A model generated the notes under the pieces. The model was not told the DNA's origin. It made no database searches and worked only from the letters and a program-made list of their open reading frames with translations. Positions 8,160 through 38,850 of a stretch of DNA of 64,000 bases are shown here, piece by piece. Both the position numbers and the translations under genes were made by a program. Origin of the DNA: Atopobium fossor DSM 15642 (GTDB lineage Bacteria > Actinomycetota > Coriobacteriia > Coriobacteriales > Atopobiaceae); assembly GCF_000483125.1 (NCBI RefSeq), contig NZ_KI519553.1:469124-533123 (forward strand), read 5' to 3'. Position 1 is the first letter of the stretch. Every line of letters begins with the position of its first letter.

Positions 8160-8161
8160 GT

Positions 8162-9679: not shown

Positions 9680-9684
9680 TCCAA

Positions 9685-10833: not shown

Positions 10834-10899
10834 CTATCCGCACACCCTCAAGATAGGGTAGAGTTATACCGTACTTTTACTAAACCCATAGGAGATACT

Positions 10900-12321: not shown

Positions 12322-12347
12322 TGTAAGTAACGAGCAGTTAGCACATA

Positions 12348-13538
12348 ATGGCAGCCGATTTGGGTCGAAAGGGCTTAAAGCCTACACCCCGCAAAAAACC
12401 AACAAAGCGAGAAGAGAAACGCGCGGTTAAACAGCTCAAGAAGCGCGGTGCTAGTCCTGCGCGCATAGCAGCTAAGCAATCTATGCAGGCACGTATGCAA
12501 AACGTGAATGTACGTGATGCGGCGGCGGGCTTGAACAGTACTGGTACTGCAAAAACTGCAGCGGCTTCTAAAGGTTTCTCTTTTAGCTTGCCGCAGCTGT
12601 CATTTTCTCCTATCCGTGCACTGATTGGCATTGCCGTAACAGCAATTTCTTTGCTCTTATTGTTACTTATTTTGTCTCAACTGCCCGTGTTTGTAATCGA
12701 GTCCATCGATGCAGATTCTACTCAGCATATGGATTCTGAGTCTATTGCAAAGCTGGCATCTGTACCTGCGGGTACTACGCTACTTAATGTGAATACTTCA
12801 GAAATTGCCCAAAACATCCAAAAGAATCCTTGGGCGGGAGAAGTTCATATTAGGCGAGAATTTCCCAATAAGTTAAAAGTACAGGTGGAAGAGCGTAAGG
12901 CCTCTGCTATTGTGCTCATGAGCTCGGGTGATATTGCTTGGTATATTGGTGATGACGGTGTATGGATTGAGCCGTTTAAAATCACCACATCCAAAGATGA
13001 GTCTGCTACAGATGTAGCTTTGCGCCAGGCTAACCAGTTGGGTTGTTTGCTTATTACCAGCGTGCCTTCCTCTGTTACTCCTAAAGCTGCCAGTAAGACA
13101 ACGGATGCAACAGTGCTTGCAGTGCTTAAATATATCAATGGCTTTAGCTCAGACTTTTCCAAGAATATAGTGAGCTATTCAGCTGCGAGTACGGAATCTA
13201 TCTCCTGTGTATTATCCAGCGGGGTAGAGGTTTCCTTAGGTACCGCTTCAGATATTACTACTAAGGAAAGCGTAGTTTCTCAGCTCCTTACTCAATATCC
13301 CAATCAGATTACCTACATTAATGTACGTGTTCCTTCCAAGCCAAGTTATCGTAAAGTTGGTGCGGAATCGGTTAACCCTGGGTCTGGTGGTCGTGTGGTG
13401 AACGACGGTACGGGCAATCCTCCTTCAGATGCGGATGAAGCTGCTGCAAAGGCAAAAGAAGCGTCTGAGAATCAACAGTCCAAAAACTCCGATGACTCCA
13501 ATACTTCCGAGTCTGATAAGAACTCCAATAACGGTTAA
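12348..13538 (+). CDS. ftsQ: FtsQ/DivIB-type cell division protein
   Basis: A bitopic divisome protein that, with FtsL and FtsB, scaffolds and regulates FtsW-FtsI. The 396-residue product has a strongly basic cytoplasmic region of about 90 residues, one transmembrane helix (about 93-114), a POTRA domain directly after it (about 117-190) and a beta domain, then a Ser/Asp/Asn-rich low-complexity C-terminus. The gene order murC-ftsQ-ftsZ supports the name. A start at ATG 12348 lies 26 nt after murC, without a strong ribosome binding site. Confidence 0.87.
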   Translation: MAADLGRKGLKPTPRKKPTKREEKRAVKQLKKRGASPARIAAKQSMQARMQNVNVRDAAAGLNSTGTAKTAAASKGFSFSLPQLSFSPIRALIGIAVTAISLLLLLLILSQLPVFVIESIDADSTQHMDSESIAKLASVPAGTTLLNVNTSEIAQNIQKNPWAGEVHIRREFPNKLKVQVEERKASAIVLMSSGDIAWYIGDDGVWIEPFKITTSKDESATDVALRQANQLGCLLITSVPSSVTPKAASKTTDATVLAVLKYINGFSSDFSKNIVSYSAASTESISCVLSSGVEVSLGTASDITTKESVVSQLLTQYPNQITYINVRVPSKPSYRKVGAESVNPGSGGRVVNDGTGNPPSDADEAAAKAKEASENQQSKNSDDSNTSESDKNSNNG

Positions 13539-13810
13539 ACATAACGCTTGAGTATCTATAAGTCTCAAGTAGAAGGTTTGCTCTGTGCATAATTGCCCAA
13601 AATCATGCAAAGTCTGAGGTAACCCTTTAAGGTTGAGAATGTTAGAAAGCAAACAGCTTACCTGCAATTTTCATCTTTTATACAAATTGGTTGCATCTGA
13701 AGCGTGGCTGTGTAATTATTACGCGCTTTACCTCATGCTTTGAGTTTAAGTTGAACTTTAAGGTTTGCATACTTCATGGTGTGCGCAAGCTAAATGATTT
13801 AGGAGGAACC
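13539..13810 (+). other. ftsQ-ftsZ intergenic region
   Basis: A 272-nt gap within the cluster. It holds a short inverted repeat (CTTGAG at 13547-13552 with CTCAAG at 13564-13569) and A/T-rich sequence that could contain an ftsZ promoter. No -35/-10 pair convinced me. The size of the gap suggests independent control of ftsZ. Confidence 0.4.
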
Positions 13811-14947
13811 ATGGCAGACGTAGATACTCCAAACAACTACCTTGCAGTCATCAAGGTTGTTGGTGTAGGTGGCGGCGGTACCAACGCTGTTAACCGCATG
13901 ATTGAGGAGGGCATCCGTGGCGTTGAGTTTGTAGCGGTAAATACAGACGCACAGGCTCTTGCTATTTCTGAGGCAGACATCAAGGTGCACATTGGTACCG
14001 ATATTACTAAGGGTCTTGGTGCTGGTGCTAATCCTGAGGTTGGTGCAGAAGCTGCCGAGGAAAGCCGTGATGAGATTAAGCGTGCTCTTGCCGGTGCAGA
14101 CATGGTATTTATCACTGCTGGCGAGGGTGGTGGCACAGGAACTGGTGCTGCTCCCATTGTTGCTAACATCGCAAAAAATGATGTAGGTGCTCTTACTGTT
14201 GCTGTAGTAACCAAACCTTTTACCTTTGAGGGCCGCAAGCGCGCTGGTTCTGCTGTAGAGGGTATTAAGAATCTTGCAGAGGCAGTAGATACCCTGATTG
14301 TTATTCCTAATGATCGCCTGCTTTCCATTTCCGAGAAGAAGACCACCATGTTGGAAGCATTCCGCATGGCGGATGATGTTTTATGCCAGGGCACCCAGGG
14401 CATTACGGACCTCATTACCGTACCTGGTTTGATTAATCTTGACTTTGCAGATGTTTGCACTGTTATGCGCGGTGCTGGTTCTGCAATGATGGGTATTGGC
14501 CTTGCTTCTGGTGATAACCGTGCAGCAGATGCTGCTCAGCAGGCTATTTCCAGCCCCTTGTTGGAGAGCTCCATTGATGGTGCAACTCGCGTATTGCTGT
14601 CTGTTGCTGGAAACAAGGATCTTGGTATCCAGGAAATTAATGAGGCTGCAGATTTGGTAGCTTCTAATGTTGATCCCGAGGCAAATATCATCTTTGGTAC
14701 GGTTGTAGATGAGTCTTTGGGTGACCAGGTTCGTGTAACCGTCATTGCTACTGGCTTTGATGATGCCAATGCAACTCAAATGCCCGATTTGCTTGGTCGT
14801 AGGAGCGTAAGTCGTCCTGCAGCTCAGCCTCCTGTATCTGCACCTGCGCCTCGTCCAGTTCAGCCTGCTCGCCCTAGTCGTCCCGCTAACGACTTTGGCA
14901 ATCAGGCCTTTGATATCCCTGAGTTCCTCAGGAACAGCCGCGCATAA
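13811..14947 (+). CDS. ftsZ: Cell division protein FtsZ
   Basis: The tubulin-like GTPase that forms the Z ring. The 378-residue product has the GTP-binding [13 protein letters not shown] near the start, the tubulin signature [10 protein letters not shown] near 106 and the T7-loop region [12 protein letters not shown] linker rich in Pro/Ala/Arg leads to the conserved C-terminal peptide [11 protein letters not shown], the tail that binds SepF in bacteria without FtsA. ATG 13811 follows AGGAGG; an upstream in-frame start at 13691 would add 40 unconserved residues. The gene has a 272-nt leader and begins the pgeF-yggS-sepF-yggT-divIVA run. Confidence 0.97.
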
Positions 14948-26243: not shown

Positions 26244-26804
26244 ATGTCCATTGTTGAGTCTTCATTGTTGGGTTGGCTGATTGTACTTGTTTGGAGTGAC
26301 ATATTATTTCTTTTCAAAAAATGTTGCTTAGATAAAGTAGAAAATGGATTCTTAAAATATATGCTGGGCATGGTGTTTGCACATAGTTTAGTTCTGTTGC
26401 TTTATATTACAGCGATGCGCATCAGCTTCTTAAGAACGGTATTACAAAATTGGCGCTTTGGAATTATATACGGACCTCCGGGTGCACTCATGTTGTTTAT
26501 AATCCCTGGATTTTATTCCATCTTTTTAATAGGAAAAGGTTACTTCAATGAAGGTGGAAATCAGGCATCTTGGGAATGGAAATTAAAGATGATGGCTTCT
26601 CTATTTTTTAATGGATTTGCTACTCTTTTTGGTTTGCTATGGGTTTACCTTCTTCTGCAAGGAACAAGTTTTTCTGAGTTGGTTTTTATCATTCGAGATA
26701 GCTTTCAATACATGGATTGGTGGGGGATGCTTGCGTTTGCTGCTTCATGCATCCTTTTGGTGTTTGTCATGTGGGTTGATCATAAAAAATGCCATAGTAT
26801 TTAG
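26244..26804 (+). CDS. Unrecognised multi-pass membrane protein
   Basis: I do not recognise this 186-residue protein. It has about five hydrophobic segments (near residues 5-25, 40-60, 75-100, 118-140 and 155-178) with short hydrophilic loops and no clear signature residues. ATG 26244 follows AAAGGAGG at 8 nt, so translation is credible. Codon and base use look A/T-rich compared with the dcw genes. It stands alone between rnpB and the restriction-modification locus; no functional partner is suggested. Confidence 0.65.
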   Translation: MSIVESSLLGWLIVLVWSDILFLFKKCCLDKVENGFLKYMLGMVFAHSLVLLLYITAMRISFLRTVLQNWRFGIIYGPPGALMLFIIPGFYSIFLIGKGYFNEGGNQASWEWKLKMMASLFFNGFATLFGLLWVYLLLQGTSFSELVFIIRDSFQYMDWWGMLAFAASCILLVFVMWVDHKKCHSI

Positions 26805-27050
26805 AGTATCTTTCACAAAAGATTAAAGAAATAATTAATCCTTTCTGTCCTATTCAGAGGACAGTTGGAGTAAAAGCAGTGTATTACACTCTAAAATCAA
26901 CTTATAGAGTAAGTGAATAATAGGAGTATGAACATGTTTCTGCTTTAAGAATATTTTTGAATTACGTTTATCGAATAATCTAGCAGGTCATAAGGCTGTA
27001 ATGAGATAATTACGATTGTTTTCAGCGTAAGTATTCCAAAGGAGTTCAAG
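26805..27050 (+). other. Intergenic region before hsdM
   Basis: A/T-rich, 246 nt. It holds a short hairpin (CTGTCC/GGACAG, about 26848-26867) without a T-tract and GTGTATTACAC, an 11-nt near-palindrome. No convincing promoter or small gene was identified, though the hsdM promoter should lie here. Confidence 0.35.
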
Positions 27051-29630
27051 GTGAATAAGCAAGAATTATCTAATAATATTTGGAAGCAGGCAAACAAGAT
27101 GCGCGGCAAGATTGATGCTTCGGAATATAAAGATTTTATTCTTGGTTTTATCTTTTATAAGTTTTTGTCTGAGCGAGAAATAAGCTGTGCCCTTGCCAAT
27201 GAAATGGACAAGTCCGAGCTTGTGGAGCTTGAAGAAACCAATATAGAAGTTCGTGAGCTTATCCAAAGCGAGCTTGGATATTTTATTAATTACAAAGACC
27301 TCTTTAGCACTTGGATTTCGAGTGGTTACGATTTTGAAATTGCAAATGTTTATGACGCGCTTTCTGCGTTTAATCGTAATATTGTTCCATCTCATAAAAA
27401 AGTCTTTGAGAAGATTTTTGACAGCCTAGAGACTGGTCTTTCAAAGCTTGGTACTAGTGCGTCAGCTCAAACAAAATCTGCACGAGATATTATGCAGCTC
27501 ATTAACAAGATTCCCATGGATGGTAAGCAAGGCTATGACGTGCTTGGCTACATTTACGAGGATCTTATCAGTAAATTTGCTTCTACAGCAGGTAAAAAAG
27601 CTGGCGAATTTTATACCCCGCATGAAGTTTCAACGGTAATGGCAAATATCGTTGCTTATTATCTTCGCAATAAAGATAGTGTAGAGGTGTATGACCCCAC
27701 TTCTGGTTCTGGCTCGCTTCTCATTACTATTGGTAAAGCAGCTGCTCAGTATTCTGGCACACTTAATAGTATTAAGTTTTATGCTCAAGAGCTTAACCAG
27801 AACACCTACAATCTAACGCGTATGAATTTGATTATGCGTGGTATTGCACCAGATAACCTGTATACAAGAAATGCAGATACACTAGACGATGACTGGCCTT
27901 ATTTTGATGAAAATGACCCTAGTGGTACCTATAATCCTTTATTTGTAAATGCGGTTGTCTCTAATCCTCCGTATTCTCAAGATTGGCACTCAGAGAACAA
28001 AGAGAATGACCCTCGCTATAGCTTTGGTTTAGCTCCAAAATCTACTGCAGACTATGCATTCTTACTACATGACCTTTATCATCTTCAGCCAGATGGAGTT
28101 ATGACAATCGTTTTGCCTCATGGCGTGTTGTTCCGCGGAGGATCTGAGGGAGAAATTCGACGTAATCTGCTTGAGAATCATCATATCGAGGCAGTAATTG
28201 GTTTACCAGCAAACATTTTCTTTGGTACGGGAATTCCTACTATTATTATGGTTTTGCGTAAGCAGCGAGTTGCAGATAACGTTCTATTCATTGATGCCTC
28301 AAAAGGTTTTGAGAAAAAGGGAACACAAAATGTGCTGCGCGCCTGCGATATTAAGCGTATTACAGACACCATTATTGCCCATGAAACTGTTGAGGGTTAT
28401 TCGCGTGTAGTGCCCTTGGAAGAGATTCGTAATAACGATTACAACCTTAATATCCCTCGTTATATTGACACATCAGAAAAAGCTGAGTCGTGGGATATAT
28501 ATGCTTCGATGTTTGGTGGAATTCCAAATTCAGAAATTGATGCTTTAAAGGATTACTGGGATGCATTTTCTGGTCTACGCGAAACTCTATTTACTAGCCT
28601 TAATGAAAAGTACTCGAAAGCCAGTCTTGATACATCAGATGCTTTTGCACTAGAAGATAAGATTACTAACTATGCAAAAGTAAAGGATTATGAAGCTGTT
28701 TATAAATCGAAACTTTCTGGAATTCAGCAGATACTTCAAGAGTCTCTAATCAATAATCTTATGTCTATAGAGCCTAATGTCGAAAAAAATAGCATTTCAG
28801 ATGCTTTGTTCACCATGCTTGATGGTATTCCTCTGGTTGATAAATATGACGTGTATCAAGTGTTTGCAGCAGTTTGGGAGCATGTAGAGCAGGATATAGA
28901 AGTCATTCATGCAGATGGTTTTGAGTCAATTAAAACTGTAGAGCCAAATATGGTTACTAAAACCAAGGGTGGTGAAGAAGTAGACGTACAAGAAGGATGG
29001 AAGGGTCATATTTTCCCCTATGAGTTTGTGCAGCAGCGCTATCTTAAAGATGACTTGGCTCGATTAACAGCATTGACGCAACGTCTTGATGAAATAAACT
29101 CCGAGCGTAATGACATTTTTGAATCTCTTTCCGAAGAAGAGAAAAGTCATGATGTTGTGAATGATTCAAGTACCGCATTTGTTACTGCCGCTATAAAGAA
29201 ATATGCAAAAGAATTCAAGAAAGATTTTATTGAAGAAGATTCGTTTGAAGAGAAAATTATTAATGTATCAGCTCTTGCTAATGAGGAAACAACGCTCAAA
29301 AGAACTATTAAAGAGATGAACGCATTACTTGAAGCAAACACACGTAAGCAAATTGAAAACCTTACTGACGACCAGATATATATACTTTTAAAAGATAAGT
29401 GGATTACTCCAATTATCGATGGCGTATTTGAATTACCGCAGGTAGTAATTACTGATTTGTCAAAGAAGGTATCTGGGTTATGCAAAAAGTACGCAACTAC
29501 TCTTAGTGATTTGCAACAAGAGATTAATACTGCTGAAGCTGAGCTAATTGGCTCCCTTGATCAGCTTGTTGGTGATGAGTATGACATGCTTGGTCTTGAG
29601 CAATTTAAAAAATTGCTCGGAGGTGAGTAA
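27051..29630 (+). CDS. hsdM: Type I restriction-modification system DNA methyltransferase subunit HsdM
   Basis: The modification subunit, which with HsdS methylates adenine in a split target sequence. An N-terminal HsdM helical domain (1-130) precedes an N6-adenine methyltransferase domain with the SAM motif DPTSGSGSL near 215 and catalytic NPPY at 305. At 859 residues it is far longer than the usual 500-550; the extra C-terminal part (about 480-859) is helical and coiled-coil-like. The GTG start follows AAAGGAG at 6 nt. The stop is 2 nt before hsdS, so the two are coupled. Confidence 0.93.
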   Translation: MNKQELSNNIWKQANKMRGKIDASEYKDFILGFIFYKFLSEREISCALANEMDKSELVELEETNIEVRELIQSELGYFINYKDLFSTWISSGYDFEIANVYDALSAFNRNIVPSHKKVFEKIFDSLETGLSKLGTSASAQTKSARDIMQLINKIPMDGKQGYDVLGYIYEDLISKFASTAGKKAGEFYTPHEVSTVMANIVAYYLRNKDSVEVYDPTSGSGSLLITIGKAAAQYSGTLNSIKFYAQELNQNTYNLTRMNLIMRGIAPDNLYTRNADTLDDDWPYFDENDPSGTYNPLFVNAVVSNPPYSQDWHSENKENDPRYSFGLAPKSTADYAFLLHDLYHLQPDGVMTIVLPHGVLFRGGSEGEIRRNLLENHHIEAVIGLPANIFFGTGIPTIIMVLRKQRVADNVLFIDASKGFEKKGTQNVLRACDIKRITDTIIAHETVEGYSRVVPLEEIRNNDYNLNIPRYIDTSEKAESWDIYASMFGGIPNSEIDALKDYWDAFSGLRETLFTSLNEKYSKASLDTSDAFALEDKITNYAKVKDYEAVYKSKLSGIQQILQESLINNLMSIEPNVEKNSISDALFTMLDGIPLVDKYDVYQVFAAVWEHVEQDIEVIHADGFESIKTVEPNMVTKTKGGEEVDVQEGWKGHIFPYEFVQQRYLKDDLARLTALTQRLDEINSERNDIFESLSEEEKSHDVVNDSSTAFVTAAIKKYAKEFKKDFIEEDSFEEKIINVSALANEETTLKRTIKEMNALLEANTRKQIENLTDDQIYILLKDKWITPIIDGVFELPQVVITDLSKKVSGLCKKYATTLSDLQQEINTAEAELIGSLDQLVGDEYDMLGLEQFKKLLGGE

Positions 29631-29632
29631 AC

Positions 29633-30766
29633 ATGCTGGAAAAGAGGGATGTTCCACAGATTCGTTTTTCTGGTTTTACTGACCCTTGGGAACAGCGTAA
29701 GTTCTCTGATTTCGCTCAACGTGAATCTACTTTTCAATCGTCATCATCTGAATATCCAAGCATTGAGTATGAAGATGTTGTCGCCGAGGAAGGACGCCTA
29801 AATAAAGATGTCCGAAAGAAAGAAATACAGAAAAAGGGTATAGCTTTCGATGGAACTCAGGTGCTATATGGAAAGCTCCGTCCGTATCTACATAACTGGC
29901 TAAGCCCTGATTTTACAGGCGTTGCTGCTGGTGACTGGTGGGTTTTGAGACCGGTTGGAATGGATAAGAAATTCCTTTATAGACTGATTCAGACGCAGCA
30001 ATTTGATAAAATTGCCAATCAATCATCTGGCTCAAAAATGCCTCGTGCAGACTGGAATCTTGTATCAAATACGGAATTTGTCGTTCCCGTTTCGCTTGGT
30101 GAACAACGACAGATAGCGGAGACTTTTGACAGCCTCGACTCCCTCATCACCCTTCATCAGCGTAAGTGTGACAAATTGGTTGACTTCAAGAAGTCTATGC
30201 TTGAAAAGATGTTTCCAAAAGAAGGAGAAGTAGAACCTGAAATACGTTTTTCTGGTTTTACTGACCCTTGGGAACAGCGTAAGCTGGGGGAGTTGTTTAG
30301 TTACGAGCGTCCCGATGCTTATATTGTTAATGACGAAGAATATGACGACTCAAATCCGACTCCAGTGCTCACAGCGAATAAAGGTTTTATTCTCGGATAC
30401 ACTGCAGAAAGGCAAACACATAAAGAACCCTGTGTAATTTTTGATGACTTTACGCTCAACTGCAAGCTTGTGACCTTTCCTTTTATGGTTAAGTCTTCAG
30501 CAATAAAAATTCTTCATGCCTATGACGATGTTGATCTAACTTTCGCATACGAGCGTCTTTGTTCATCGAATATAGAAGTTTTGGGACATGCTCGACACTA
30601 CATTAATGTTGTTCAAAATACCGAAGTTGCAGTTTCTACTTACACTGAGCAGCGTGCCATTGGCAAAGTATTTAGCAACCTCAATTCCCTCATCACCCTT
30701 CATCAGCGTAAGTTAGAAATGCTTAAAAAAATGAAACAAGCAATGCTCGAAAAGATGTTCGTATAA
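29633..30766 (+). CDS. hsdS: Type I specificity subunit HsdS, two TRDs, presumed expressed copy
   Basis: HsdS dictates the DNA target of the HsdM/HsdR complex. The 377-residue protein has two target recognition domains, TRD1 (about 24-165) and TRD2 (about 217-345). Each begins with DPWEQRK and ends with a conserved coiled-coil helix containing SLITLHQRK. It is coupled to hsdM (2-nt gap), so this is the copy expected to be expressed. Both TRDs are bounded by short DNA repeats that also flank three spare TRD cassettes downstream, suggesting that its TRDs can be exchanged by recombination. Confidence 0.92.
   Translation: MLEKRDVPQIRFSGFTDPWEQRKFSDFAQRESTFQSSSSEYPSIEYEDVVAEEGRLNKDVRKKEIQKKGIAFDGTQVLYGKLRPYLHNWLSPDFTGVAAGDWWVLRPVGMDKKFLYRLIQTQQFDKIANQSSGSKMPRADWNLVSNTEFVVPVSLGEQRQIAETFDSLDSLITLHQRKCDKLVDFKKSMLEKMFPKEGEVEPEIRFSGFTDPWEQRKLGELFSYERPDAYIVNDEEYDDSNPTPVLTANKGFILGYTAERQTHKEPCVIFDDFTLNCKLVTFPFMVKSSAIKILHAYDDVDLTFAYERLCSSNIEVLGHARHYINVVQNTEVAVSTYTEQRAIGKVFSNLNSLITLHQRKLEMLKKMKQAMLEKMFV
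29663..29701 (+). repeat. Repeat R1, copy A (start of TRD1)
   Basis: A 39-nt sequence encoding RFSGFTDPWEQRK, identical to copy B at 30245-30283. Its 3' core (CTTGGGAACAGCGTAAG) recurs in all five copies. Confidence 0.88.
30140..30201 (+). repeat. Repeat R2, copy A (end of TRD1)
   Basis: A 62-nt sequence identical to 32110-32171. Its first 27 nt (TCCCTCATCACCCTTCATCA and following) recur after every TRD of the locus. It encodes the conserved central helix SLITLHQRK. Confidence 0.88.
30245..30283 (+). repeat. Repeat R1, copy B (start of TRD2)
   Basis: Identical over 39 nt with copy A. Continues as CTGGGGGAG, shared with copy D. Confidence 0.88.
30686..30712 (+). repeat. Repeat R2, copy B (end of TRD2)
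   Basis: The 27-nt core shared with copies A, C and D without mismatch. Confidence 0.88.
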
Positions 30767-30796
30767 ATTCAAATCACAACAGTAGGAGGTTTTTCA

Positions 30797-30982
30797 ATGG
30801 ATCGCAAGCGTGCAGTTGAGGAATCCGTTCACTCAAGCGAAATGGAGGGTGCTTACGTGTCTGCCGAGTTCCGCAAGGATGCTGAGGAATACGTGAAGGG
30901 TGACATCCCTATAGAGGAGCTCATGCGCAGGACAAAACGTCGTTGGGACCCTGGTAGGAAGGGTGAGGCGGCGCATGTCTGA
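30797..30982 (+). CDS. VbhA-like antitoxin of a Fic toxin
   Basis: A 61-residue protein matching antitoxins of class I Fic systems. The inhibitory motif S-x-x-x-E-G is present as SSEMEG (about residues 12-17), within the helix expected to block the Fic ATP site by its glutamate. AGGAGG precedes the ATG. It overlaps fic by 8 nt (ATGTCTGA), the arrangement expected for tightly coupled toxin and antitoxin. It lies 30 nt after hsdS, inside the type I restriction-modification locus. Confidence 0.82.
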   Translation: MDRKRAVEESVHSSEMEGAYVSAEFRKDAEEYVKGDIPIEELMRRTKRRWDPGRKGEAAHV

Positions 30983-31631
30983 CGAGTTTGTCGATCCCTA
31001 TATTGATCCAAATACAGGCATTCTGCAAAATCTTGTTGGTGCAAGAACATGGGACGAGTTGAACAACGCTGAAGGTGAGCTTGTCTCTGCTCGCATGAGC
31101 GAGTTTCTCAAGGAGCTTCCCATTAATCCGACAGGCACACTTGATGACCTGATGTACATTCACTGGTGGCTGTTCCAAGATGTGTTTGAGTGGGCGGGAA
31201 AAATTAGAACCATCGAAATTCGTAAGGCGAGTGAGGAGTCACAGTTCTTTCTTCCGTCAGCAAACATAACAACAGGCGCTGCTTGGGCGTGTGGCGAGCT
31301 TGAAAAGGACGGTTTTTTCAGGGAAGTGTCACTGGAAGACTTTCCTAGACGTATGGCCTATCACTATGACAACTACAACTTTATTCATCCATTTCGCGAA
31401 GGTAACGGCCGAACCCAGCGTCTGTTCTGGTCTCTTCTTTGTCACAAAGCGGGTTTTGACCTCGATTGGAGGGGAGTCTCTGGTGTGGAGAATGACGAAG
31501 CGAGTCGCATGGCAACGGAGGACCGCGATATGGGGCCGCTAGAATCCATCTTTGCAAGGATTGTCACCCCATGTGATCCATCCGTGTCTCTCAACGCTGA
31601 GATGATACGAGCAGGGCATCTTGATGGGTAG
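30975..31631 (+). CDS. fic: Fic family protein (AMP transferase toxin, class I)
   Basis: Fic proteins usually transfer AMP from ATP to a target hydroxyl; VbhT-type toxins modify type II topoisomerases. The 218-residue protein has the complete core motif HPFREGNGR from His138, with the catalytic histidine and anion-binding loop intact, so activity is expected. ATG 30975 overlaps the antitoxin by 8 nt. Its TAG overlaps the ATG of the following half-hsdS gene by another 8 nt. Base composition appears higher in GC than neighbouring hsdR, suggesting separate acquisition. The target is unknown. Confidence 0.88.
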   Translation: MSDEFVDPYIDPNTGILQNLVGARTWDELNNAEGELVSARMSEFLKELPINPTGTLDDLMYIHWWLFQDVFEWAGKIRTIEIRKASEESQFFLPSANITTGAAWACGELEKDGFFREVSLEDFPRRMAYHYDNYNFIHPFREGNGRTQRLFWSLLCHKAGFDLDWRGVSGVENDEASRMATEDRDMGPLESIFARIVTPCDPSVSLNAEMIRAGHLDG

Positions 31632-32190
31632 GAAATCGATTGACCCTTGGGAACAGCGTAAGCTGGAAAATTTTCTTTCATTGAGTCGAATACCGGGGCA
31701 TACGGGTATCGATGCAAGAAAATTAACGGTAAAGCTCTGGTCTAAAGGAGTTGTCGAAAAAATAGATACTTATTCCGGAAGTGAAAATACACAGTACTAC
31801 ATTCGTCATGCCGGTCAGTTTATGTATGGGAAGCTAGATTTCTTACATGCGGCATTCGGGATTGTACCCGATAGCCTTGATGGATATGAATCTACCTTGG
31901 ATTCTCCCGCGTTCGATATGCGAGATATAGACAGTTCTTTTTTACTGAATCGCGTAAGTAAGGTGGACTTCTATATTCGACAAGGTAACATTGCAAATGG
32001 TAGTCGGAAGGCAAAGCGCATACATGAAGATACGTTCCTCGCAATGCCAATAACGATTCCCTCGCTTGAAGAGCAAAGACTCATCGGATTGATGTTCGTC
32101 CACCTCGATTCCCTCATCACCCTTCATCAGCGTAAGTGTGACAAATTGGTTGACTTCAAGAAGTCTATGCTCGAAAAGATGTTCGTATAG
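31624..32190 (+). CDS. Single-TRD (half) HsdS, cassette TRD3
   Basis: A 188-residue HsdS fragment with one TRD followed by the conserved SLITLHQRK helix and the same end (KSMLEKMFV) as the full hsdS. It has its own ATG, overlapping the fic stop (ATGGGTAG), so it could be translated by coupling to fic. Half-HsdS proteins are known to dimerise into working specificity subunits in some systems; whether this one does is inference. Alternatively it is a donor cassette for recombination into hsdS. Copies of R1 and R2 bound the TRD. Confidence 0.8.
   Translation: MGRKSIDPWEQRKLENFLSLSRIPGHTGIDARKLTVKLWSKGVVEKIDTYSGSENTQYYIRHAGQFMYGKLDFLHAAFGIVPDSLDGYESTLDSPAFDMRDIDSSFLLNRVSKVDFYIRQGNIANGSRKAKRIHEDTFLAMPITIPSLEEQRLIGLMFVHLDSLITLHQRKCDKLVDFKKSMLEKMFV
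31641..31664 (+). repeat. Repeat R1, copy C (start of TRD3)
   Basis: A 24-nt match to copies A and B starting at TGACCCTTGGGAACAGCG. Sequence further upstream differs, so the repeat is shorter here. Confidence 0.85.
32110..32171 (+). repeat. Repeat R2, copy C (end of TRD3)
   Basis: A 62-nt match to copy A, including the conserved C-terminal helix codons. Confidence 0.88.
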
Positions 32191-32206
32191 GAAGGAAAGC
32201 CAAAAA

Positions 32207-35200
32207 ATGGTTTTCGAGAGTGAAGCAGCGTTTGAAAATGCGGTTATCGAAAGTCTGATTCAACATGGCTGGAGTTCAGAGATTCTAAAAAATCCAACCA
32301 AACAGGATCTTCTCGATAATTGGGCTGATATTCTATATCGCAATAATATAGATATTGATCGTCTTAATGGTCAGCCGTTAACTGCTTCCGAGATGAATCA
32401 GGTTATTGAGCAAATTAATGTTCTTCGTACACCAAGTCAGTTAAATGAGTTCATTAATGGTAAGAGCGTATCTATCAAACGTGATAATCCAGCTGATAAG
32501 CTTCATCTTGGCAAGATTGTTAGTCTTCAAATTTATAATCGTAACGAAGTTGCTGGTGGAAAAAGTATTTATCAAATTGCTCAGCAGCCAATTTTTGATA
32601 CTCCAATAAAAGAGGTTCACAATAGGAGGGGAGACTTACTCCTTCTGATTTGTGGTATGCCTGTCATTCATATTGAGCTTAAAGGCTCAAATGTTCCTAT
32701 TAGTCAGGCAGTAACTCAGATTAAAAAGTATATGCATGAAGGTGTTTATCACGGCATTTACTCTCTTGTGCAGGTCTTTTTTGCAATGAATCCAAATGAA
32801 ACAAAATACTTTGCAAACCCTGGTTCTGAGGATGCCTTCAAGCCTGAGTTTCAGTTTCATTGGGGAGATTTCTACAACAATCCAATTAATGACTGGAAAG
32901 AAATCACTTCTACGATCTTGAGTATCCCCATGGCTCATCAGCTTATTGGTTTTTATATTATTGCAGATAGTTCTGATGGCGTTTTAAAAGTTATGCGCAG
33001 CTATCAAATTAAAGCTGTTGAGAAAATTACAGATCGCGTAATTACACAGCGTTGGGGAGAGAAGAATCAGCGTGGTGGCTACATTTGGCATACTACTGGT
33101 TCTGGTAAGACAATGACGAGCTTTAAAGCAGCTGAGCTTATTGCTAATTCTCATGCTGCAGATAAAGTCATTTTCTTGATGGATCGAATTGAGCTCAGTA
33201 CACAGTCCTTGCGTCAATATAACGACTTTACTTCCTTAAACGAAGAGGTTCAAGGCACTAATAACACCTATGACTTACGCAATAAGCTGCGCAGTACAGA
33301 TCCAAGTAACACACTTATTGTTACTTCAATCCAAAAAATGAGTAACATTCATTTGGACGCTAATGGCATTACGGATGAAGAAATTGCAATACTCAATAAA
33401 AAACGTATGGTTGTAATTGTTGATGAATGCCATCGTTCCACTTTTGGTGATGAAATGGCAATTATTAAGAGAACATTCCCATTCGCTCTGTTTTTTGGCT
33501 TTACAGGTACTCCTATTCAAGGCGAAAATGAAAAAAATAAGTCTCAAACGTCAGATATTTTTGGCAATGAGCTCCATCGCTACAGTATTGCAGACGGAAT
33601 CCGAGATAAGAATGTATTGGGTTTTGACCCCTACATGATCTGTGTGTATAAAGATAAAGATATACGTAGAGAAGTTGCTCTTCATCAGGCTAAAGCTAGT
33701 TCTGTCAAAGAGGCTCTGTCTGACCTAAATAAGAAAAAAATATACCTTCATTTTATGAATAAGAATGTGGTTCCAGAAGCTGGTTATAGAGATGCTAGTG
33801 GTGAATACCATAAGGGAATTGAGGACTATATTCCTAAATCTCAATTTGATAATGATGACTATAGAAGTGCAGTAGTAAAAGATATTGCAGAGAGTTTTGA
33901 AACTCACAGTTTAAACCATCGTTATCATGCAATTTTTGCAACTAGCAGCATTCATGAAGCAATTGCGTACTATCGTCTATTTAAGCAGCTTGCACCTGAG
34001 ATTGTAACGACTGCACTATTTGACCCAAATATTGATAATAATGAGGGTGCTATAGAAAAAAGTGATGGGCTTGCAGAACTAATCAAAGATTATAATCAGC
34101 GATTTGATCGTGAATATACGGCAGCCAAATTCCAGGATATGAAAAAGGACATTTCTTCCCGCTTAGCTCATAAGAGTCCTTATAAAGGTATTGAAAAAGA
34201 TAAGAGTCAGCAAATTGATATTCTGATAGTTGTAGACCAGATGTTAACTGGTTTTGACTCAAAATGGGTTAACACGTTGTACCTTGACAAAGTATTAAAG
34301 TATGAAGGGTTAATTCAGGCATTTTCTCGTACAAACCGTCTGTTCAGAAGCGATGAAAAACCTTATGGCATAATCCGCTATTACCGACTTCCTCATACAA
34401 TGAAGAGAAACGTCAAAGATGCAATTAAACTTTACTCTGGAGACGTTCCTTTTGGTCTTTTTGTTGATAAATTGCATGTCAATTTGAAGAAGATTGATTC
34501 TCTATTTTTGGAGATAGAGAGCTTGTTTAATTCGAACGGGGTAGAGAATTTTGCATCATTGCCAGAATCTTATGAATCTCGTGCTAAGTTTTCCCAGTTA
34601 TTTAGAGATCTTTTTCAAACAGTTGCCGCAGCAAAATTGCAGGGTTTTGTTTGGAGAGATGATTTTCACTACGAAATTAATATTGAAACTGAAACCAATG
34701 ACGATAGTGATACGGAAGTTATTGAACTTTCTATTGATGAAAGAGCTTATGAAACGCTTATTCAACGTTATAAGGAGTTGCAATCAAATGAGGCTACTGG
34801 CTCAGACAGCAGCAGTTCATATGCTTCTTATGAGCTAGATCCCTATATCACTGAGTATGATTTGGTTCGAATTGATGCTGATTATATGAACCATAATTTC
34901 AAAAAATGGATCAAAGCAAAAAATGATGACAAGGTATCAGTTGAACGAGTGCAACAAGTTTTACAACAGCTTCACCGCTCATATGCCTCTTTATCTCAAG
35001 AGCTACAAGAGATAGCAAATCTTGTAATTCATGATATTGATGCCGGTGACCTAGAAGTTGAATCTGATAAGGATTTCATGACTTATATAACTCAGTATCA
35101 GGCAAAAGCTTTTGAAGATGAAGTTACAAAAATTGTTGATAACTTTGGATTAGATGAGCAGCTCTTTAGATCAATTATTGCAACAAATGTGACCGAAGCA

Positions 35201-35365
35201 AATCTTAATGAATACGAGCGTTTTGATAAGCTAAAGGCTTCTGTTGATAAGGGAAAAGCTGCAAATTATATAGAGTCCGTAGATGGAGAAACACTTAAAG
35301 GTTTTCGCTTAAATGCGCGAATAAACAAGCTGTTAAAGTCGATTCTTTTGGAGTGGAATAAGTAA
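32207..35365 (+). CDS. hsdR: Type I restriction endonuclease subunit HsdR
   Basis: The translocation and cleavage subunit. The 1052-residue protein has an N-terminal nuclease domain (the E-x-K pair is Glu157-Leu-Lys159 in HIELKGSN), a superfamily 2 helicase core with Walker A GSGKT at 298-302 and the DEAD-like box DECH at 406-409, helicase motif FTGTPIQ and a helical C-terminal domain that docks on HsdM. All catalytic motifs look intact. ATG 32207 follows GGAAGG; an earlier in-frame ATG at 32138 lies in the tail of the half-hsdS gene. It is separated from hsdM-hsdS by the Fic module. Confidence 0.93.
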   Translation: MVFESEAAFENAVIESLIQHGWSSEILKNPTKQDLLDNWADILYRNNIDIDRLNGQPLTASEMNQVIEQINVLRTPSQLNEFINGKSVSIKRDNPADKLHLGKIVSLQIYNRNEVAGGKSIYQIAQQPIFDTPIKEVHNRRGDLLLLICGMPVIHIELKGSNVPISQAVTQIKKYMHEGVYHGIYSLVQVFFAMNPNETKYFANPGSEDAFKPEFQFHWGDFYNNPINDWKEITSTILSIPMAHQLIGFYIIADSSDGVLKVMRSYQIKAVEKITDRVITQRWGEKNQRGGYIWHTTGSGKTMTSFKAAELIANSHAADKVIFLMDRIELSTQSLRQYNDFTSLNEEVQGTNNTYDLRNKLRSTDPSNTLIVTSIQKMSNIHLDANGITDEEIAILNKKRMVVIVDECHRSTFGDEMAIIKRTFPFALFFGFTGTPIQGENEKNKSQTSDIFGNELHRYSIADGIRDKNVLGFDPYMICVYKDKDIRREVALHQAKASSVKEALSDLNKKKIYLHFMNKNVVPEAGYRDASGEYHKGIEDYIPKSQFDNDDYRSAVVKDIAESFETHSLNHRYHAIFATSSIHEAIAYYRLFKQLAPEIVTTALFDPNIDNNEGAIEKSDGLAELIKDYNQRFDREYTAAKFQDMKKDISSRLAHKSPYKGIEKDKSQQIDILIVVDQMLTGFDSKWVNTLYLDKVLKYEGLIQAFSRTNRLFRSDEKPYGIIRYYRLPHTMKRNVKDAIKLYSGDVPFGLFVDKLHVNLKKIDSLFLEIESLFNSNGVENFASLPESYESRAKFSQLFRDLFQTVAAAKLQGFVWRDDFHYEINIETETNDDSDTEVIELSIDERAYETLIQRYKELQSNEATGSDSSSSYASYELDPYITEYDLVRIDADYMNHNFKKWIKAKNDDKVSVERVQQVLQQLHRSYASLSQELQEIANLVIHDIDAGDLEVESDKDFMTYITQYQAKAFEDEVTKIVDNFGLDEQLFRSIIATNVTEANLNEYERFDKLKASVDKGKAANYIESVDGETLKGFRLNARINKLLKSILLEWNK

Positions 35366-35402
35366 ACATAAAAGCGAGCCTGTTGACTCGCTTTTATGTT
35401 TC
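35365..35402 (+). terminator. Terminator of hsdR
   Basis: A 14-bp perfect stem (35365-35378 with 35387-35400) with an 8-nt loop and TTTT within and after the descending arm. It starts at the last base of the hsdR stop codon, and the next cassette's R1 repeat begins immediately after it. Confidence 0.7.
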
Positions 35403-35940
35403 TTGGGAACAGCGTAAGCTGGGGGAGCTCGGAACAACTTACGGCGGTCTGACCGGCAAGACAAAGGACGACTTTGGGCATGGCGAGGCGAGATTCGTTC
35501 CTTATATGAATGTTTTCGACAACCCTATTGGCGACCCAACGCGACTTGGAGAGGTCGAAATCGACACAAGCCAAAATCGCGTTTTGCGTGGTGATACCCT
35601 GTTCACGGTGTCATCTGAGACTTCTGAAGAGGTTGGCATGTCATCCGTTTGGCTCTCTGAACTCGAGAACCTTTACCTGAACAGCTTCTGTTTCGGGTAT
35701 AGGCAAAACGGTAGTTTCTACCCATATTACCTTGCTTACATGTTGAGATCCCATTTCGTTCGCAAAGCCATTGAATTGCTTGCCCAAGGAATATCGCGTT
35801 TCAACATTTCCAAGGGAAAGGTTATGGAGGTAGAAGTGCCTGTGCCAGATATGATCGAGCAGAGGCAGATTGGCAACTTCTTCTATCAGCTTGATTCCCT
35901 CATCACCCTTCATCAGCGTAAGCGTATAGATATGAGGTGA
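35383..35940 (+). CDS. Silent single-TRD HsdS cassette (TRD4)
   Basis: An open frame of 185 codons encoding one TRD between R1 and R2. The only in-frame start is a TTG in the loop of the hsdR terminator hairpin with no ribosome binding site, so it is probably a silent donor rather than an expressed gene. The frame ends soon after SLITLHQRK and lacks the C-terminal helix of complete copies. It appears GC-richer than hsdR. The recombinase gene follows 4 nt later. Confidence 0.7.
   Translation: MTRFYVSWEQRKLGELGTTYGGLTGKTKDDFGHGEARFVPYMNVFDNPIGDPTRLGEVEIDTSQNRVLRGDTLFTVSSETSEEVGMSSVWLSELENLYLNSFCFGYRQNGSFYPYYLAYMLRSHFVRKAIELLAQGISRFNISKGKVMEVEVPVPDMIEQRQIGNFFYQLDSLITLHQRKRIDMR
35402..35427 (+). 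repeat. Repeat R1, copy D (start of TRD4)
   Basis: A 26-nt match to copy B (CTTGGGAACAGCGTAAGCTG and six further bases), directly abutting the hsdR terminator. Confidence 0.87.
35896..35922 (+). repeat. Repeat R2, copy D (end of TRD4)
   Basis: A perfect 27-nt copy of the R2 core. Confidence 0.87.
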
Positions 35941-35944
35941 ATAA

Positions 35945-36871
35945 TTGTTCGGCTGGAAAAAGAACACCTTACTGTTTTGTGACTATTATGAGCAATGGGT
36001 TTCAACATATAAAGAAGGTGCAATTCGCGATATTACAATGCGCAAATATGCGCTAACTCAGAGATGGATTAGAGATCTAGTTCCAAATCTTTATGTTCAT
36101 GACCTTGATAGGGTAGTGTACCAAGGAATTATTAATGCATATGCTCTTTCTCATGAGAGGCAAACGGTCATGGATTTTCATCATCAGCTTAAAGGTGCAA
36201 TCTTAGATGCTGTTGATGAAGGAATGATTGCAAGAGATCCAACAAGAAAAGTGATAATAAAGGGCAGGGAAGCGAGACAAAAGAAGCCAAAATATCTCAA
36301 TCAGTTTGAACTTCATAAATTGCTAGAGGTTCTTCATTTGGGTAATCAATTAAATTGGGATTGGATGCTATTGCTTATAGCAAAAACCGGTATTCGTTTT
36401 TCTGAAGCACTGGCCTTAACTCCCGCAGATTTTGATTTTTCAAGACAAACACTTTTGATTAATAAAACGTGGAATTACAAGGGGAGTGGGGGATACCTGC
36501 CCACAAAAAATAAATCTTCTATCCGAAAAGTACCCATTGATTGGCAACTAATCGTTCAATTTTCAGAACTTTCCAAAGGATTGCCTGATGATAAGCCTAT
36601 TTTTGTAAAAGGTAAAACGTACAACTCAACAGTTAACTCAATCTTGACGCGTAGATGCAAAGAAGCTGGAGTACCTGCAATTTCTATTCATGGTCTGAGG
36701 CATACGCACGCATCTATCTTGTTATTTGCAGGGGTTTCTATTGCAAGTGTGGCGCGCAGATTAGGTCATGCAAGCATGAATACGACTCAAAAGACATATC
36801 TGCACGTTATTCAAGAATTAGAAAATAAAGATATTGATGTAGTAATGAGAACATTATCGAGTTTGACTTAA
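35945..36871 (+). CDS. Tyrosine recombinase, probable hsdS invertase
   Basis: A 308-residue phage-integrase-family recombinase with an N-terminal SAM-like core-binding domain (1-110) and a complete catalytic set: Arg151 (GIRFSEAL), a beta-hairpin lysine near SIRKVP, His249-x-x-Arg252 (HGLRH), His275 and Tyr285. The TTG start follows GAGGTG in the end of the TRD4 cassette. Lying between two oppositely oriented TRD cassettes, it is the likely enzyme for rearranging hsdS through the R1/R2 repeats. Similar genes sit beside phase-variable type I systems in other Gram-positive bacteria. A role as a generic element integrase is possible but no att sites were seen. Confidence 0.88.
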   Translation: MFGWKKNTLLFCDYYEQWVSTYKEGAIRDITMRKYALTQRWIRDLVPNLYVHDLDRVVYQGIINAYALSHERQTVMDFHHQLKGAILDAVDEGMIARDPTRKVIIKGREARQKKPKYLNQFELHKLLEVLHLGNQLNWDWMLLLIAKTGIRFSEALALTPADFDFSRQTLLINKTWNYKGSGGYLPTKNKSSIRKVPIDWQLIVQFSELSKGLPDDKPIFVKGKTYNSTVNSILTRRCKEAGVPAISIHGLRHTHASILLFAGVSIASVARRLGHASMNTTQKTYLHVIQELENKDIDVVMRTLSSLT

Positions 36872-36891
36872 TGAATCATAAATACAAGAGG

Positions 36892-36918
36892 CTTACGCTG
36901 ATGAAGGGTGATAAGGGA
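36892..36918 (-). repeat. Repeat R2, copy E, inverted (end of TRD5)
   Basis: Reverse complement of the 27-nt R2 core with one mismatch. Confidence 0.85.
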
Positions 36919-37384
36919 ATCCAAGTTGAGCACAAGAGACGTAATGACTTGTTGCTCCTCTATCGTTGGATAGGTTAATTCGACATCAGCAATGTCGTCG
37001 CCATGAACATGAACGACCGATTTCCCCTGTGCTCTCTTTGCAAGGTCTTCGTGGGCTTTGCCATATGTAATGCCAATCGCAGTGTAGTCCGGGTCTAAGC
37101 TGTTGTCTGGCGTAACAACATTTAGGTCGCCACCTAAAATAATCCCTGACCTGCGAACTGACGACGCAACGGCAATATCTTCCGCTGTCTCTCCGGATGC
37201 AGGTACGATCACTTCGACGCCCTTCGACAGCAAGGAGCCTTCTTGTTCGACGGCAAAGGTATCGACCTCTTCGATGCGAGATTCGTATTGAGTATATAGA
37301 CGTCCATAGAGGATTAAGGGCGTTCCAGAATCTCGTATATCAGCCTTGCTGTAACCGTGGCCTTTCGTAAACGTACAAAGCTCA

Positions 37385-37408
37385 CCCAGCTTACGCTGTT
37401 CCCAAGGG
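37385..37408 (-). repeat. Repeat R1, copy E, inverted (start of TRD5)
   Basis: Reverse complement of R1 (24 nt, CCCTTGGGAACAGCGTAAGC and four further bases). Its outer end is the boundary with the truncated GIY-YIG gene. Confidence 0.85.
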
Positions 37409-37416
37409 TAATCTGA

Positions 37417-38127
37417 CTAATAAAGAAATTACCCGATTTACCACGTCGAGGTATTTATTTTTTACTTGACGAAGACCATGGAGTTTTAAGTAGAGTATAT
37501 GCTGGTCAGACTACACAGGGGTTATCGCGACTTGATGCTCATAAATCAAAGAAAGAGTTTTGGAACAGGGCAGTAATGTTTCTGGATGTTGATAGCAACA
37601 TTGATCGTGATGTGCTAGATGCATTGGAAGCAAAGGCAATCAAATATGTAAACGAACATGGTTCTTACGAGACTGATAACTCAGTTATTCCGAGCACACA
37701 TAGCAATCCTTATAAAGAAGAGGCTGTTGATAATTTATTTGAACGAATTCTTTTTCGTATGGAAGTGCTTGGCTATGATTTAAATCGAATTGAAAGTACC
37801 TATGTGGTTGAAGAAAGCATATTCCATACAAAGAGAAATGGCATTCGGGCACAAGGTCGTTATGATGTAAACACGGGACGCTTTACCGTTTTGCCAGAAT
37901 CCGATATTGATTTGAGTCGAGACGTAATAAAAAATCAAACTGCAGCAATTATGCGTGAGCAGATTTTTGGTAATCAAAAGGTCAAAGCAGTGCTTAATTG
38001 TGAGATAGAGTTTTCAAGTCCTTCTACAGCTGCAGTATTTGTACTTGGTGGTAGCCAAAATGGTTGGACAGAATGGATTAATGCACGGAATCAGACACTT
38101 GATTTTGTGTATAGGCAGCAGAACTAA
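37417..38127 (+). pseudogene. 5'-truncated GIY-YIG nuclease with DUF4357 domain
   Basis: The frame is open from 37417, directly after an in-frame TGA at 37414 and 9 nt from repeat R1. It encodes RRGIYFLLDED and VYAGQTTQGLSRL, the GIY-YIG nuclease pattern, and ends in a DUF4357-like block (FVLGGSQNGWTEWINA). DUF4357 proteins usually carry this nuclease domain and more sequence before it. No start codon precedes the GIY motif; the first ATG (37576) would delete the nuclease core. The gene looks severed by the hsdS cassette array, though a short product from 37576 could still be made. Confidence 0.72.
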
Positions 38128-38196
38128 TAGACGTCTGGCAAGAAGTCCAAGTTGTTGTATGTAAACAGCAATTGTTTTAATAGTGAGTATCGAGTG

Positions 38197-38850
38197 CTAC
38201 CAAGATAAATACTTGGCATTATCCAACGACCAGTGCACATCACGAATATATTTTTGCAAACTACTACCATCACGCTTTTTGAATAACGCAACAATATGAG
38301 CATGTTCTTTATTTGCCTTGCGAGCATTTGCTTCCAAAATTTCGGGTTTCTCTTGTAAATAAGCGCGCTTCATAAAAAAGCGATTGAGATCTTCTATGTA
38401 ATGAGAAAGGCGTGTGTTGCCACACTTACATACATAAGTCTGATGGAACTCACGTTGTAGGTCATCATAGCGGTCATACAGTCCACTATTTATAGCCAGT
38501 TGCATGCTATTGCACAAAAATCCGAGCTGAGCAATGTCATTATCGCTCATACGTCCTGCCGCTAATAAAGCTGCACGACCATCTAAAGGTCCTAAAATTT
38601 CAAATACTTCTCTGGCGGCGGATTCATCAAAGCCACGCACTACAAAGCCCTTGCGCGGAACGCGCTCCAAATAGCCTTCATCAGAAAGCTGCATCAGTGC
38701 TTCTCTGACAGGAGTACGGCTTACAGACAGAGCATCTGCAATGCTTTGCTCGCTAACATGTTCAAACTCGCCGAGCATACCTTCGTTTATGAGATCAGTA
38801 ATGTGTGCGTATACGTGGTCTTTGAGGGAGAGGTATCTGTCTTTTGCCAT
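38197..38850 (-). CDS. GntR family transcriptional regulator (FCD subfamily)
   Basis: A 217-residue regulator with an N-terminal winged helix (SEQSIADALSVSRTPVREAL is the recognition region) and a helical effector domain of the FadR C-terminal (FCD) kind, with typical EILGPLDGRAALLAA and HIVALFKKRD blocks. ATG 38850 is chosen since it gives the standard N-terminus; an earlier start at 38904 adds 18 unconserved residues and runs into the operator. It is divergent from the DDAH-antiporter genes, whose substrate or product is the probable effector. Confidence 0.88.
   Translation of the reverse strand: MAKDRYLSLKDHVYAHITDLINEGMLGEFEHVSEQSIADALSVSRTPVREALMQLSDEGYLERVPRKGFVVRGFDESAAREVFEILGPLDGRAALLAAGRMSDNDIAQLGFLCNSMQLAINSGLYDRYDDLQREFHQTYVCKCGNTRLSHYIEDLNRFFMKRAYLQEKPEILEANARKANKEHAHIVALFKKRDGSSLQKYIRDVHWSLDNAKYLSW

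Follow-up and report, generated by a model that had tools for sequence, protein, structure and literature searches.

The window examined here is a stretch of 64,000 nucleotides from the genome of Atopobium fossor DSM 15642 (G000:C1:469124-533123; genome 1.65 Mb, 4 contigs). It contains a type I restriction-modification (R-M) locus with five target recognition domains (TRDs), each lying between the same two short repeats, R1 and R2. The gene order is hsdM - hsdS(TRD1, TRD2) - vbhA - fic - half hsdS(TRD3) - hsdR - TRD4 - tyrosine recombinase - inverted TRD5 - truncated DUF4357/GIY-YIG-like gene. The type I operon is intact, with hsdM, hsdR and a complete hsdS together; further hsdS segments with different TRDs are bounded by the same repeats as the expressed hsdS; and a tyrosine recombinase is encoded inside the locus. 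These three are among the properties by which a phase-variable type I R-M locus is recognized; others would be alternative arrangements within a clone or among near-identical strains, as seen in a related locus (Enterococcus raffinosus, below), and a methylation motif that changes with the arrangement. The features are as follows.

27023..27031, plus strand: orphan copy of the core CAGCGTAAG, 20 nt 5' of the hsdM start codon; may be chance
27051..29630, plus: hsdM, gene for the DNA methyltransferase subunit of the type I system, starting at GTG (passes the TIGR00497 cut-off; PF02384 E 9.3e-101)
29633..30766, plus: hsdS, expressed specificity subunit, TRD1 + TRD2 (PF01420 E 1.9e-11)
29685..29701, plus: R1 copy A, 17-nt core
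29702..30139, plus: TRD1, N slot of hsdS
30140..30166, plus: R2 copy A, 27-nt core; 62 nt identical with copy C
30267..30283, plus: R1 copy B; 39 nt identical with copy A
30284..30685, plus: TRD2, C slot of hsdS
30686..30712, plus: R2 copy B
30797..30982, plus: VbhA-type antitoxin gene, 61 aa (PF18495 VbhA E 1.2e-14)
30975..31631, plus: fic, Fic/Doc family, motif HPFREGNGRTQR, possible GTG start at 30963 (PF02661 E 4.1e-12)
31624..32190, plus: half hsdS, 188 aa, TRD3 + C-terminal tail (PADLOC type I specificity models E 8.4e-27)
31646..31662, plus: R1 copy C
32110..32136, plus: R2 copy C
32207..35365, plus: hsdR, gene for the restriction subunit of the type I system (passes the TIGR00348 cut-off; PF12008 E 6.7e-22; profile scans used the open reading frame starting at 32138)
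35363..35404, plus: strong hairpin between hsdR and TRD4 (-21.4 kcal/mol, z -5.8, equalled by 0/200 shuffles)
35402..35418, plus: R1 copy D
35419..35895, plus: TRD4, silent cassette, stop-free (PF01420 E 3.6e-8)
35896..35922, plus: R2 copy D
35945..36871, plus: tyrosine recombinase, 308 aa, hsdS-associated family (PF00589 E 4.1e-21)
36892..36918, minus: R2 copy E, inverted, one mismatch
36919..37389, minus: TRD5, silent inverted cassette, stop-free (PF01420 E 1.4e-8)
37390..37406, minus: R1 copy E, inverted
37417..38127, plus: 5'-truncated DUF4357/GIY-YIG-like gene (PF14267 E 7.4e-14)

The TRDs thus form five R1-TRD-R2 cassettes, all of them open, in the order TRD1+ TRD2+ TRD3+ TRD4+ recombinase TRD5-. 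A preliminary description of this DNA had proposed five different TRDs bounded by R1 and R2, two in hsdS, one in a half gene after fic, one after hsdR and one inverted beside the recombinase; both the number and the placement were borne out. It had set the limits of the locus around the cassettes, which do lie within them, but the unit is larger, reaching from hsdM (27051) to the truncated DUF4357/GIY-YIG-like gene (38127). A genome of the same genus (G001) lacks window positions 26,790-38,197 and has the two flanking matches only 13 nt apart, so that the locus is an 11.4-kb island. In another genome (G002) both flanks are found, each on a separate contig. The island adjoins the RNase P RNA gene (RF00010; 25779-26133, minus strand).

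The R1 and R2 joints and their link to the recombinase

The part of R1 common to all five copies is 17 nt (CTTGGGAACAGCGTAAG). The length of 24-39 nt given earlier is right at its upper end, copies A and B being identical across exactly 39 nt, but 24 nt applies only to some pairs. R2 has a common core of 27 nt (ATCACCCTTCATCAGCGTAAG), exact in four copies and off by one in copy E, and copies A and C are identical across exactly 62 nt; the range of 27-62 nt and the mismatch in copy E are as in the preliminary description. A search of the whole 1.65-Mb genome allowing up to three mismatches returned five R1 and five R2 sites, every one inside the locus, and a reversed-pattern control in the same search gave no matches; the possibility that the repeats occur elsewhere in the genome is thereby ruled out. 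R1 and R2 have the stretch CAGCGTAAG in common, read in the same frame (QRK). The window contains 12 copies of it where 0.49 would be expected, a count reached in 0/100 shuffles. Ten of the copies lie at TRD borders, one at 27023-27031 before hsdM and one elsewhere (51305). The orphan copy before hsdM may be there by chance. Among relatives, 19 of 257 cores are orphans, compared with about 8.6 by chance (an estimate over 1,121,448 bases). Orphan cores were also observed 30-80 nt 5' of the recombinase gene in five related loci (L068, L074, L114, L115, L123) and just 3' of it in L065; those beside recombinase genes could possibly be extra sites or regulatory sites.

To what extent the joints are conserved was examined in 80 loci from named genomes, fetched by the recombinase protein alone (the best 80 of 330 relatives, 68-76% identical) and assigned to phyla from their record titles. 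Sixty-one of them contain hsdM/hsdR or a TRD cassette. The remaining 19 are represented by sequence stretches of at most 11.2 kb and therefore miss at least one flank. At sites encoding WEQRK, 123 of 143 read TGGGAACAGCGTAAG, where recombinase-gene codon use predicts about 2.2%; at those encoding LHQRK, 83 of 103 read CTTCATCAGCGTAAG, where about 0.5% is predicted (in both cases copies within a locus are not independent). Exact R1 and R2 were found, respectively, in 25 and 19 of 30 loci of Actinomycetota, in 24 and 24 of 42 of Bacillota, in 1 and 1 of 1 of Desulfobacterota, in 0 and 1 of 5 of Pseudomonadota, and in neither the one locus of Spirochaetota nor the one unassigned. Over the window and the 80 loci together, no cassette contains a stop codon, 136 being open and the other 2 out of frame, a count which leaves out 26 further R1 copies with no R2 partner in range.

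In a bait-free control, an any-codon ITLHQRK pattern was run over 100 whole genomes of relatives. It found 23 sites in 9 genomes, of which 20 are identical to R2 and three, all in G022, are one base off. Such a site is present in 8/11 genomes with a near-full-length close recombinase and in 1/89 of the others, two of which contain a recombinase fragment (Fisher p 7.7e-9). By these results R1 and R2 behave as DNA sites linked to the recombinase, and not as protein conservation, with silent positions nearly fixed in both Actinomycetota and Bacillota.

The recombinase itself retains R151, H249, R252 and H275, which are invariant across 93 aligned relatives, and Y285, present in 92/93. A role as the enzyme of a mobile element was considered and rejected: searches of plasmid and phage sequences (641 plasmid and 1960 phage records, E 1e-5) gave mostly generic integrases, the best full-length matches being at 63% to E. 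raffinosus and at 61-62% to Enterococcus/Listeria records. The exact R2 had no match in viral contigs, among which 56 relatives of the recombinase were found.

Movement of recognition domains among related loci

Differences between related genomes fall at the same joints. Two Enterococcus raffinosus strains, with a recombinase 63% identical to the one described here, match at 99.98% identity across 12.7 kb to one side of the locus and at 98.4% across 6.1 kb to the opposite side. Between these flanks the recombinase segment keeps its orientation, whilst the two TRD segments beside it are exchanged and inverted. The upstream borders of the exchange lie at R1, one cassette being 100% identical inside and approximately 50-60% just upstream; downstream, identity fades across about 100 nt past R2. 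In Bifidobacterium ramosum and B. simiiventris, a TRD that is 97.5% identical occupies the N slot in one species and the C slot in the other, with HsdM 96% and the recombinase 94% identical. Comparison of their N slots gives DNA identity of 88-100% up to the joint and 41-58% within the TRD. The domain that changed slot belongs to the same family as TRD4 of the window (71% identical).

Two further pairs combine near-identical TRDs with dissimilar methyltransferases. A Lachnospiraceae metagenome-assembled genome (MAG) and Clostridium sp. MSJ-8 have TRDs 97.4% identical, HsdM 47% and recombinase 73%; for Adlercreutzia caecimuris and A. muris the values are 98.6% for the TRD, 99.7% for the recombinase and 43% for HsdM. 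The near-identical TRDs of relatives end at R1 and R2. Overall, the TRD was closer than HsdM in 129/151 pairs, in a set that includes duplicate genome records (L044/L090, L045/L108) and several copies per locus. Comparison with the recombinase was mixed, the TRD being closer in 41/185 TRD pairs at 60% identity or more. The 138 cassettes fall into 29 TRD families, 18 of them found in more than one slot type by a crude slot pattern; slot labels were relied on only where checked by eye (the window, L065 and L097).

It is possible, albeit on balance somewhat doubtful, that R1 and R2 are the near-universal joints of a pool of TRD cassettes extending across genera, comparable to the cassettes of integrons, and that the recombinase lets loci take in foreign TRDs, in either HsdS half and even with an unrelated HsdM. 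The Lachnospiraceae/Clostridium and Adlercreutzia pairs, with their TRDs bounded by R1 and R2 despite HsdM identities of 47% and 43%, are the leads for this suggestion. As a separate observation, the same TRD occurs twice within one locus in L113, L116, L120, L121 and L045, in L113 as an N slot and a silent cassette. Conservative site-specific recombination alone would not yield such duplications.

Cassettes lie on both strands in 23/80 of the related loci. Where hsdM and hsdR are both present they are on opposite strands in 5/35 loci, an expected outcome of inversions that span the operon.

Proposed shuffling model and known systems compared

The locus is very probably a phase-variable type I R-M locus that shuffles its TRDs, a variant of a kind already known. 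The preliminary description had read it in the same sense, and this reading is supported by recombinase-linked sites, by cores in common with Listeria and by swaps bounded by R1 and R2 in related strains and species. By means of five interchangeable cassettes the bacterium can probably change which DNA is marked and cut. In the proposed mechanism the recombinase would pair two R1 or two R2 sites, with exchange within or close to the core that they have in common, CAGCGTAAG. Inversions would result from oppositely oriented sites (cassette 5 versus cassettes 1-4), whilst those in the same orientation (cassettes 1-4) could allow excision and re-integration. The products would be HsdS proteins with other bipartite targets, and would lead to other patterns of methylation and restriction. 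R1 and R2 flank all five TRDs in one frame and both halves of hsdS have the same joints; hence any TRD fits either half in frame. For the same reason cassettes can change half, and the Bifidobacterium case shows such a change in a relative.

Shuffling was modelled as inversions between like sites, any two like sites being assumed equally recombinogenic. The model reached 5760 orders and brought all 20 ordered TRD pairs next to hsdM; apart from the existing pair, the 19 others are 2-5 inversions away. The earlier figure of up to 20 pairs is thus topologically attainable by inversion alone. One excision and re-integration between direct copies gave five new full-length pairs.

Loci of this kind have been described before. 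The hsd locus of Listeria monocytogenes ST8/CC8 (LMR479A_0528-0532), for which the recombination sequences agcttgggaacagcgt and ctatcgctcttcatcagcgtaagttagat are published, has four arrangements, several of them found in near-identical genomes (PMC4783014). Single colonies with different hsdS alleles can be isolated for Lmo0320I of Listeria CC4, and the alleles differ in methylation motif (PMC7662400). It is from these sites, arrangements and allele-specific motifs that the kind of system is known. The Listeria core CTTGGGAACAGCGT (14 nt) is present in 5/5 R1 copies here and the core CTTCATCAGCGTAAG (15-20 nt) in 5/5 R2 copies. Both Listeria loci are type I hsdRMS loci with an integrase between oppositely oriented hsdS genes. 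Listeria records carry recombinases 60-61% identical to this one, which may or may not be those of these particular hsd loci. The Listeria loci differ in having two full hsdS genes with four TRDs fixed to their half (variants A-D); direct copies, a Fic pair and a half gene are not described in the available accounts of them. In the window, two single TRDs and not two-TRD hsdS genes flank the recombinase, and the full hsdS is 5 kb away.

The SpnIV/tvr locus of Streptococcus pneumoniae shows a different set of likenesses: single-TRD segments dispersed over the locus, a tyrosine recombinase, two kinds of direct repeat with a common core of about 11 bp, a Fic-family toxin (Doc) with its antitoxin, and a hairpin that limits recombinase expression (PMC6265443). 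Its segments stay 5' or 3' and its repeats all have one orientation, whereas here the same joints serve both halves and one cassette is inverted. Furthermore, the antitoxin here is VbhA and not Phd, and Fic does not adjoin the recombinase. In pneumococcal SpnIII/cod/ivr, a tyrosine recombinase, PsrA (CreX), inverts hsdS segments at short sites, and the 15-bp inversions are wholly dependent on it (PMC7096588, PMC6620402). The conserved 10-bp site of that system, ATTATGGGAA, has only TGGGAA in common with R1, and the system is further set apart by its fixed slots, its six HsdS forms and its long repeats (85 and 333 bp). Finally, a REBASE survey of type I loci with duplicated inverted hsdS describes loci in which more than one hsdS gene carries inverted repeats, frequently accompanied by a recombinase or integrase; it sought inverted repeats in duplicated hsdS, and single-TRD cassettes or joints serving both halves are not described in the portion available (PMC7394358).

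The kind of locus is thus already known and the present one is an unusually large and flexible version. Its variant features are single-TRD cassettes fitting both HsdS halves, the mixture of direct and inverted copies, and the VbhA-Fic pair inside. It has five cassettes, compared with at most four in relatives (within the flanks examined). Twenty specificities are possible on paper because five single-TRD cassettes share one joint pair fitting both HsdS halves, as against 4 to 6 in the inverting loci of Listeria and the pneumococcus. The preliminary description was correct that such loci are known in other Gram-positive bacteria, but too narrow: related recombinases also adjoin type I genes in Rodentibacter and in one Desulfovibrionaceae genome. 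No locus of this kind in Coriobacteriales, including Collinsella, was found in the open-access literature searched. Within a clonal population, recombinase-driven switching of type I specificity can alter gene expression as well as phage restriction. The near-fixed joints, R1 CTTGGGAACAGCGTAAG and R2 ATCACCCTTCATCAGCGTAAG, provide a searchable signature for such loci in long-read methylome data, and also a means of asking whether TRDs spread between genera as cassettes.

A number of observations weigh against shuffling in the form proposed. The assembly contains one arrangement only, and the TRD swaps were seen between strains or species and not inside one culture. In the inversion model, 4/8 single steps leave hsdS unchanged and 4/8 make it incomplete, so that none gives another full-length hsdS with either of the two C-terminal tails. 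Neither exact site is present in 23/80 of the related loci, including all four from Rodentibacter and the Spirochaetales locus; since many recombinase loci carry neither, the site is not universal. The truncated DUF4357/GIY-YIG-like gene is the clearest indication that the locus may in part be decaying.

Three other explanations were weighed. The strongest, which is nevertheless unlikely, is that shuffling is mainly of the tvr type, with circles excised and re-integrated between the four direct copies and the inverted copy a side branch. Four of the five cassettes are direct, a Fic-family toxin-antitoxin pair lies between direct copies as Phd-Doc does in tvr (PMC6265443), and a single excision and re-integration yields the five new full-length pairs of the model. 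However, the recombinase sits between two cassettes of opposite orientation, an arrangement shared with the Listeria locus that inverts; relatives have cassettes on both strands (the 23/80 given above); and what distinguishes the two E. raffinosus strains is that inverted segments have changed places. The tvr properties of a single repeat orientation and slot-restricted TRDs are absent here, given the inverted cassette and the equal joints in both slots.

A second explanation is that the locus formerly shuffled and is now locked, with one arrangement fixed and TRD3-5 as remnants. The single junction set of the assembly, the loss of part of the neighbouring DUF4357/GIY-YIG-like gene at an R1 joint, and the want of a normal start or C-terminal tail in TRD4 and TRD5 would all accord with this. 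It is nonetheless improbable, as the recombinase is full length with its conserved catalytic residues, all five cassettes are open with exact joints, and silent cassettes are the normal state among relatives. Lastly, the repeats do encode conserved HsdS borders in frame, and TRDs of Helicobacter pylori are reported to move between HsdS halves by recombination at repeats (PMC3077401), but the proposal that R1 and R2 are merely conserved codons (WEQRK, SLITLHQRK), with TRD diversity built up over evolutionary time through ordinary homologous recombination between strains, is barely credible: silent positions are nearly fixed in DNA across genera, the R2 sequence is almost confined to genomes with the recombinase, and opposite-strand silent cassettes outside hsdS genes retain both joints and an open frame. 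Protein conservation as the sole basis of the repeats was rejected on the first two of these grounds.

Accessory genes and other type I loci of the genome

HsdM and HsdR score above the NCBIfam cut-offs, the C terminus of HsdR matches EcoR124_C, and the nearest solved chain to HsdS is the EcoR124II specificity protein (E 4e-19). The half hsdS matches Pfam Methylase_S at E 0.0053, below the cut-off. Its ATG overlaps the fic stop codon, which suggests that it is translationally coupled to fic. The VbhA-Fic pair is located between TRD2 and TRD3, and Fic matches a VbhT model at E 1.2e-32, yet below the cut-off of that model. A Fic protein at least 55% identical is encoded in 7/80 related loci and a weaker one (26-31%) in six more; in loci of Bifidobacterium and Adlercreutzia, homologues approximately 60% identical are encoded between hsdS and hsdR. 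Fic also matches the PADLOC candidate defence family PDC-S04 (E 2.6e-59). Doc, the toxin of the tvr locus, belongs to the Fic family. By analogy with tvrAT of the pneumococcal tvr locus, the VbhA-Fic pair between direct copies may restrain the recombinase or penalize loss of an excised circle. Phd-Doc of tvr represses shuffling (PMC6265443).

The DUF4357/GIY-YIG-like gene stands directly before hsdM in 7/9 of the named loci with a copy at least 55% identical. The copy in the window lies 3' of TRD5 and lacks about 40 N-terminal residues, the break falling exactly at the start of the inverted R1; this looks like the scar of a past rearrangement at R1. Its product matches PF01541 GIY-YIG at E 0.024, below the cut-off, and the PADLOC candidate defence family PDC-S14 at E 3.3e-43.

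The hairpin at 35363..35404 is a possible terminator or attenuator ahead of the recombinase gene, and its position fits an attenuator. It is not among the sites listed by a terminator scan which was uninformative in itself (11 sites against 7.5 expected), as was a promoter scan (23 against 29.0 expected).

Two other regions of the genome contain hsdS-like sequence. In L209 (G000:C1:97000-115000) two hsdS-like matches lie at about 8200-9520, one of them with an internal TAA; within the 4.5 kb examined there were no direct repeats of at least 14 nt. The other region, a second type I locus, L208 (G000:C2:131000-150000), encodes at 7344-14739 a tyrosine recombinase (PF00589 E 2.9e-34) followed by hsdS genes, hsdM and hsdR. 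Here a full and a partial hsdS in opposite orientation have a common 22-bp inverted repeat, CAGCGCACAAATGATAATTTAG, and this appears to be a further hsdS locus, inverting in the classical way and at sites other than R1 and R2.

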